From the NCBI GenBank assembly GCA_036939755.1, contig JALLAZ010000279.1, forward strand, positions 1 through 18,795: a stretch of 18,795 bases of DNA. Direction: 5' to 3'. This stretch comes from Stephanodiscus triporus. Its lineage: Eukaryota > Bacillariophyta > Thalassiosirophyceae > Thalassiosirales > Thalassiosiraceae. The notes under the pieces are model-generated. The model was not told the DNA's origin, ran no database searches, and saw only the letters and a program-made list of their open reading frames with translations. Position numbers and translations under genes: made by a program. Position 1 is the first letter of the stretch; the number at the start of each line of letters is the position of its first letter. This document shows, piece by piece, positions 10,587 to 11,769 of this stretch.

Positions 10587-11530
10587 ATGAGGTTACTGAC
10601 CTCCGTCGCAACCCTTGCCACTGTGGTTTGGGCTCCGCATGCCGTCGGCGCCTTCGTCCCGCCATCTACCGCTCGAAGTCCGATTCCCTTCAGAGCAAGC
10701 CTCGGCGACGACCGCACCCAGACCGTGTGCGACATCCCCTCCGAATTCGACGAAACTCCATCCTTGGTGGGAGTTTCCAATGGCGCTGATGCCATCCGCT
10801 CCGCGGTGGTAATCAACTCCGCGGGAGATTTCGTCCGCGTCGACGATGCGATCAAATCCAGCAAGGCGGCAGCGAGCGCCCCGCACGTCGTGGTTTACCT
10901 CCGTCACATGGGATGACCCTACTGCTGGAGCTACGCCAAGCAGTGGTGTAGCATTCAGCCGCAATTGGATGAAGCGGGCGTTGGCGGTCCCATATTCATC
11001 AGCATCGGGGATGCGGACAAGTTGAATACCTTTCTGGATGCTAACGATTGGATGGGCAGGGACCAGATGTTTGTGGATGATTACTCCTTCGACGCGTACA
11101 AGGCGGCCGGCTTTGGTCGGTTTGATCAGGTGGACAAGGAGAAGGTGAAAAATGTCAAGATGAGTGCGCCTGAATTGGGAGGGCTCGGGAGATGGATGAA
11201 TTATTTCTCCATCGTCGGTAAAGTATCTCCCGTGCCAAAGGTATGTAAGCTTTTTCTGCACAATTGTGCACTTTGGTATCATTTTGCACAAGATGTTGTG
11301 AATGAATGTCGACCTTTCCCACTCGCTAGGACCTTAAATTTGGTGAAGTCCCAGAAGGCGTCTTGTGGACTGGTGGAACTTTTGTGATTCAGGACAATAA
11401 CGTTCTTTACCAATGGACCGATACCGTTCCTGGAAACCACCCGGTGATCGAGGACATTGTTGACATAGCGAAGGATGCCGCTCAGAATACCAAGCAGAAG
11501 AATTTACTGGGCAAAGTCGGATGGTTTTAG
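10587..11530 (+). CDS. Plastid-targeted peroxiredoxin-like selenoprotein with a UxxC motif
   Basis: Two exons: 10587-11240 and 11330-11530, with an 89-nt phase-0 intron (GTATGT...CGCTAG). Reading the TGA at 10914-10916 as selenocysteine gives 284 aa. Sec110 lies in RHMG-Sec-PYCW, where AhpC/TSA antioxidant and PRXL2 (SelU-type) thioredoxin-fold proteins have RHFGCPFC. Cys113 is the resolving partner (UxxC) and Cys121 follows. The frame stays open and conserved-looking after the TGA: GPIFISIGDADKLNTFLDAN, then across the splice, LWTGGTFVIQDNNVLYQW. The N-terminus (MRLLTSVATLATVVWAPHAV, then GAFVPP) is a signal peptide plus the Phe-containing motif of diatom plastid proteins. The likely role is thiol or peroxide redox chemistry in the plastid. 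A SECIS-like stem-loop follows the stop codon. The alternative, a nonsense mutation or sequencing error, is unlikely given position, SECIS and downstream conservation. Confidence 0.87.
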
Positions 11531-11561
11531 ATGATCTGATGCGGTTGAGCTGGCACTTTAT

Positions 11562-11640
11562 TTCGGTTGATGTGAATGACGTAACATGGAACGTCGATGC
11601 AACTCATCATGTTCCACGTTGCTGACAAAATATCGCTGAA
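11562..11640 (+). promoter_or_regulatory. SECIS element in the selenoprotein 3' UTR
   Basis: The stem-loop starts 32 nt after the stop codon. Helix I pairs 11562-11571 with 11632-11640 (one bulge at 11567). An internal loop follows. The non-canonical quartet is formed by ATGA at 11576-11579 and TGA at 11623-11625 (G.A and A.G pairs). Helix II pairs 11581-11589 with 11613-11621, with one A.C mismatch and one G.U. AA at 11590-11591 comes ten bases after ATGA, the position of the conserved SECIS adenines, and GATG/CATC (11596-11599 with 11605-11608) forms a small apical helix, as in type II SECIS elements. The AA could also extend helix II by pairing with TT at 11611-11613. SECIS elements recruit SBP2 and the Sec elongation factor to recode UGA. 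Confidence 0.82.
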
Positions 11641-11769
11641 GTGAAAAACGGCCAATGCATCTCAACATTATAGTATCATTCTTCCTCAAAGAAGATTTGA
11701 GAGCATTTTGAAATAATTTAGGATTGAATTAGAACAAACCTCTGTGGTACAGCAACCCCGAACAGACGA

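Follow-up and report, generated by a model that had tools for sequence, protein, structure and literature searches.

The window analysed here, a stretch of 18,795 nt from the diatom Stephanodiscus triporus taken at its full length, carries on its plus strand a reading frame that opens with an ATG at 10587 and meets a TGA at 10914-10916, which raises the question of whether this triplet marks a dead or misread gene, an ordinary amino acid, or selenocysteine (Sec). The first-pass annotation, made from the sequence alone, had read the locus as a peroxiredoxin-like selenoprotein with a UxxC centre, and this reading appears largely right. The locus is very probably a nuclear diatom selenoprotein gene, encoding a protein of AhpC-TSA_2/PRXL2 (SelU-type) thioredoxin fold that is probably imported into the plastid, with UGA at codon 110 read as Sec by means of a SECIS element. 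The sequence supports the gene structure, the TGA at a conserved redox position, the flanking conservation, a hairpin common to other selenoprotein genes and most of the decoding machinery; Sec insertion at residue 110 is very likely, and peroxidase activity, substrate and electron donor are what we infer from the fold and the UxxC centre. The SECIS candidate, the plastid-type leader, the Sec machinery, the TGA conservation and four more TGA-bearing genes in the assembly go beyond the earlier annotation. The features are as follows.

10587..11240, plus strand: exon 1, 218 codons, codon 110 being TGA (from the open reading frame translation)
10587..10652, plus strand: leader, residues 1-22, hydrophobic and followed by Phe23, a plastid-type signal-peptide/transit-peptide junction (by a home-made rule)
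10914..10916, plus strand: in-frame TGA, codon 110, putative selenocysteine (from the frame and the relatives)
10914..10925, plus strand: UxxC redox centre, U110-P-Y-C113 (from the alignment)
11241..11329, plus strand: intron of 89 nt, GT-AG, phase 0 (relatives P0001 and P0002 are continuous here)
11330..11530, plus strand: exon 2, closing with TAG
11560..11642, plus strand: SECIS-like hairpin in the 3′ flank, with a lower helix, a 7x7 internal loop and an upper helix containing one A.C mismatch
11576..11580, plus strand: 5′ side of the SECIS core, ATGAC
11623..11626, plus strand: 3′ side of the SECIS core, TGAC

The TGA lies in frame with the ATG at 10587, as had been claimed, and the frame runs on past it for 108 more codons within exon 1 and across the phase-0 intron bounded by GT and AG, also in agreement with the first-pass annotation. 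Splicing yields a product of 284 residues in which codon 110 is the only TGA; all eight Trp are encoded by TGG, and the three Cys by TGC or TGT. When the bases after the TGA were shuffled with dinucleotides kept, the frame stayed open in 41 of 5000 shuffles, so that the open frame alone is more than chance yet modest evidence. What is decisive for the reality of the gene past the TGA is similarity to relatives downstream of it. Homologs dissimilar in that region had been named as an outcome that would count against the selenoprotein reading, and the homologs found are similar there, aligning both upstream and downstream of the TGA around the redox Cys position. Two of them, P0001 (99% identical) and P0002 (96%), bridge the splice junction without a break and thereby support the intron call. 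A second copy of the gene did not turn up in the assembly.

The state of the Sec position was compared across relatives collected by a homology search with the TGA entered as Cys (95 proteins) and a profile search (294, of which the best 120 were listed), together giving 151 different sequences among the matches listed. The site is spanned by 28 of these 151, with Cys in 14, Trp in 13 and Asp in one. The Cys in half of the spanning relatives listed agrees with the earlier claim that the TGA takes the place of the redox-active Cys. The motif RHFGCPFC, which had been expected in Cys forms, was replaced in the 14 listed by RHLACPYC (n=6), RHLGCPYC (n=5), RHLGCFNC (n=2) or RHLGCFHC (n=1). Among the non-spanning relatives listed, 112 of 123 have an imputed first residue at 111-145, just past the TGA, and five gene models skip the site, namely P0003 (Cyclotella cryptica), P0009 (C. 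atomus), P0044 (Attheya), P0076 (Fistulifera solaris) and P0087. The prediction that annotation would split or truncate the gene is thus borne out in these entries, and we read the site-skipping models as annotation artefacts. P0093 stops at residue 109, P0014, P0041 and P0086 are frame-shifted gene calls across the site, and P0043 and P0092 belong to none of these kinds.

When the shifted calls were read back by hand, the triplet separating Gly from Pro in RH-x-G-?-P-Y-C came out as YGA in P0014 and P0041 and as NGA in P0086; neither form admits a Cys or a Trp codon, and both are compatible with TGA. Some gene callers try a genetic code in which TGA is Trp, turning a TGA into Trp, and the Trp of the 13 relatives is probably best read as TGA called under that code. 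Taken together, the 112 of 123 starts past the site, the Trp in 13 of 28 and the three shifted reads, all among the matches listed, indirectly suggest that the TGA is conserved among the relatives. Sec is not required in the family, given that 14 of the listed relatives have Cys and one has Asp. The Cys forms occupy five places on a rough tree built from 148 columns, in which many forks are open, truncated rows are labelled Sec by inference, and P0089, P0092, P0093 and P0095 were left out as short or odd. The Asp form, P0122 (RHLGDPYCW), has a Cys form, P0115, as its tree neighbour. The back-read sequences of P0014, P0041 and P0086 also suggest an intron inside the Trp codon directly after UPYC in some relatives, without a counterpart in the gene studied here. 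Pattern searches for relatives gave 26 matches in viral contigs and 33 in prokaryote genome contigs, none of which was confirmed.

The hairpin in the 3′ flank has a minimum free energy of -30.2 kcal/mol and a z-score of -4.0, and none of 200 shuffles was equally stable. It has the AUGA/NGA core between two helices that is asked of a SECIS element: AUGAC, beginning 46 nt past the stop, and UGAC both lie within the 7x7 internal loop. At the usual place of the apical AA, 10 nt downstream of AUGA, this hairpin has an AA whose bases are paired in the minimum-free-energy fold. A strict scan, in which an AA had to stand 7-11 nt into the helix, picked out this element and two weak matches on the other strand of the window, and none in the other loci then examined; random sequence reached it in 56 of 5000 trials at the flank's composition and in 3 of 5000 at the window's. 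The two weak matches, at 899-951 and 1051-1103 on the minus strand, correspond to the start of a repetitive NUMOD3-motif gene (136-951) and to a repeat of this start about 150 bases upstream of it. Once the data had been seen, the AA requirement was dropped, and the shuffle controls given below apply to this loosened version of the detector. ATGACG is not rare in the window (12 observed against 11.4 expected), and the signal is the placement of ATGACG together with the hairpin, not ATGACG alone. An Rfam scan of the window and the 3′ flank returned no SECIS, only unrelated names below threshold; Rfam SECIS_1 had no match in the assembly, a null that says little because the 14 control genomes were without a match too.

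Four further genes in the assembly carry a TGA at the expected Sec site: SPS2 (L008), GPx (L009), a SelU1-type gene (L001) and SelT (L022). The SelU1-type gene, at L001:918-1961, reads AVRRPG-U-FLCREE, its TGA beginning two bases into an exon, and has an ATGAC/TGAG hairpin past its stop; SelT has the motif FCTS-U-GMK. In all four, ATGACG lies 31 to 106 nt past the stop, at the foot of a helix that NGAN closes, so that with the gene studied here the ATGACG core lies within 110 nt of the stop in five of five TGA-bearing genes examined. Of 2000 shuffles each, the combined score for core and helix was reached by 0 for this gene, 0 for SelU1, 5 for SPS2, 33 for GPx and 42 for SelT. The test is weak for GPx and SelT, whose loosened scores were 8.1 and 7.9; across 690 background tiles of 300 nt, positives included, 1.6% reached a score of 8 and 3.6% a score of 7. 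The 3′ flank of SelT is uncertain, since its stop was placed where a stop first occurs in a frame that possibly crosses an intron, and the GPx match carries a TAG besides the TGA, taken for intron read-through. The five hairpins had no common spacing to the conserved SECIS AA, and Rfam returned no SECIS at the SelU1, SPS2 and GPx loci. Five MsrA matches in the assembly hold no TGA, and hence not every candidate family is in the Sec form here.

Most of the Sec machinery appears to be encoded in the assembly (21.65 Mb in 1324 contigs), as judged from tRNA-Sec, SPS2 and eEFSec. The tRNA-Sec has the anticodon TCA (83.7 bits), SPS2 itself contains a TGA, and a eukaryotic eEFSec domain (113.1 bits) lies in an 812-residue open frame on contig C523, with no match in 14 prokaryotic control genomes. 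A second tRNA-Sec match (71.1 bits, L004:1501-1589), for which ARAGORN could not name the anticodon, adjoins an RNase MRP match at 1021-1459. SepSecS was not found in the assembly with PF05889 or TIGR03531, presumably owing to the incompleteness of the assembly. An initiation-factor-like protein on another contig, C244, had at first been suspected to be eEFSec and was ruled out by its domains. Two of eight reading frames checked, those of the neighbouring genes GNAT and TAM41, have TGA as their stop, which argues that TGA is not reassigned throughout this genome.

The product scores just above the cut-off for PF13911 (AhpC-TSA_2; residues 124-249, 28.8 bits against 27), a comparison that the first-pass annotation had proposed, and weakly matches the SelL-related redox protein profile NF040769 over residues 95-263 (36.6 bits, E 3.4e-9), far short of the 120 bits set as its cut-off. 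Among solved proteins, prostamide/PGF synthase 9us9 comes closest by sequence (E 0.0057 from the single sequence and 2.4e-4 from the profile), and in this alignment the CxxC of the synthase (C44/C47, according to the title of 9usa) falls on U110/C113. A structure model of a Cys-form relative, P0096 from Cylindrotheca fusiformis (mean pLDDT 84), gave 9usa, the C44S/C47S PGF synthase, as the first match in a fold search, with peroxiredoxins among the next. A further PF13911 protein lies on the minus strand of L002 at about 1501-2325; it has LPQLGEFDS in place of CxxC, the stretch that follows may hold a glutaredoxin-like domain, and both TGA that the match contains are probably intronic. The leader of the gene studied here ends in AVGA and is followed by FVPPSTARS. 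Of the 29 rows that have an N-terminus, 23, this protein among them, show by a home-made rule a hydrophobic stretch with Phe directly after it, at +1 (P0093 being doubtful). We take this pattern to be the ASAFAP motif of diatom plastid preproteins, and import of the protein into the plastid is probable. No plastid-directed SelU-type member was found in the open-licence literature, which does not prove its absence.

Could the TGA instead be a nonsense change of a Cys codon, or a sequencing error, in a gene that is dead or misread? The Cys in 14 of the 28 spanning relatives listed would suit such an origin, as would the fact that this gene was read in one assembly, but the frame is otherwise intact, a SECIS-like hairpin follows it, the relatives 99% and 96% identical are cut at the same site, as many distinct others appear to be (112 of the 123 non-spanning ones listed), and the three shifted reads require an NGA-type codon; we therefore consider a pseudogene or error highly improbable. 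Still more remote is a genome-wide use of TGA for an ordinary amino acid, Trp or Cys, without selenium. It would account for the Trp seen at the site in 13 of the listed database relatives, yet it is at odds with the GNAT and TAM41 genes of the window ending in TGA, with the exclusive use of TGG, TGC and TGT for the eight Trp and three Cys of this gene, with the TGA at known Sec positions of SPS2, GPx, SelT and SelU1, and with the presence of tRNA-Sec. The listed relatives in which the codon state is readable, moreover, show Cys, unmixed save for one Asp.

An alternative that we hold to be possible, though doubtful, leaves Sec in place and changes the function: a real SelU-type selenoprotein that does not remove peroxide and acts as a disulfide reductase or as an endoperoxide reductase like prostamide/PGF synthase, perhaps outside the plastid. 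UxxC and CxxC centres are also found in disulfide reductases, and the synthase is the nearest solved relative both by sequence (9us9, with the profile) and by fold (9usa), whereas many further fold matches are peroxiredoxins, and a location outside the plastid sits poorly with the leader followed by Phe in 23 of 29 rows. We favour a peroxiredoxin-like selenoprotein that is probably imported into the plastid. In this protein, UGA at codon 110 would be decoded as Sec by tRNA-Sec and eEFSec, directed by the SECIS hairpin in the 3′ UTR. After import into the plastid, Sec110 would attack a peroxide, either H2O2 or a lipid hydroperoxide; the selenenic acid would then be resolved by Cys113 into a Se-S bond, which a donor of thioredoxin or glutathione type would reduce again.

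Whether the wider pattern amounts to a diatom-wide, mostly Sec-form and plastid-imported peroxiredoxin-like family, systematically truncated or spliced around by gene prediction, tying selenium supply to chloroplast peroxide defence, and having switched between Sec and Cys several separate times and once to Asp, seems to us evenly balanced. If the plastid location is true, a chloroplast selenoenzyme would be a concrete reason for a possible selenium dependence of light-stress defence in diatoms. The public gene models of C. cryptica, C. atomus, Attheya sp. and F. solaris are without the active-site stretch, and many metagenome entries start past it; because this stretch is missing, the Sec peptide is out of reach of proteomic and functional searches against these entries.

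SelU-type selenoproteins of diatoms are already in print, so that the kind is known and the gene described here is another member of it. Two SelU genes are reported in Thalassiosira pseudonana (PMC2375036). A study of algae counts SELENOU as one of the four Sec proteins with the widest distribution, gives diatoms 20 to 44 selenoprotein genes and describes an AhpC_b with UxxC in T. oceanica (PMC7539508). Sec forms are reported in all three SelU subfamilies among invertebrates, PRXL2B being SelU3 in that naming (PMC3473315), and several UxxC Prx-like families are listed from ocean data (PMC2398784). Literature on SelU together with AAED1 was not found, and the matches listed for PRXL2 with selenoprotein held nothing on algae. 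Less expected are a leader of plastid type, a TGA form that apparently predominates among the relatives listed, and the consistent cutting of the database entries.

Among known systems, prostamide/PGF synthase (PRXL2B) is the best match by both sequence and fold among solved structures; the human enzyme has Cys where this protein has U110, and identity in the fold alignment with the P0096 model is 18-20%. Selenoprotein U (SELENOU; PRXL2, SelU1-3) resembles the protein in PF13911, in the thioredoxin fold, in the UxxC/CxxC centre and in existing in both Sec and Cys forms, whereas this protein carries a plastid-type leader and reads RHMG-U-PYCW against RRPG-U-FLCREE in the SelU1-type gene of the same assembly. 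SelL, according to PMC3473315, has two Sec and this protein one. AhpC_b of T. oceanica, compared here by its description in PMC7539508, is likewise a diatom protein with an AhpC_TSA domain and UxxC; that description covers a single species and names prokaryotes as the sole source of Cys homologs, whereas the family described here has many diatom-type relatives.
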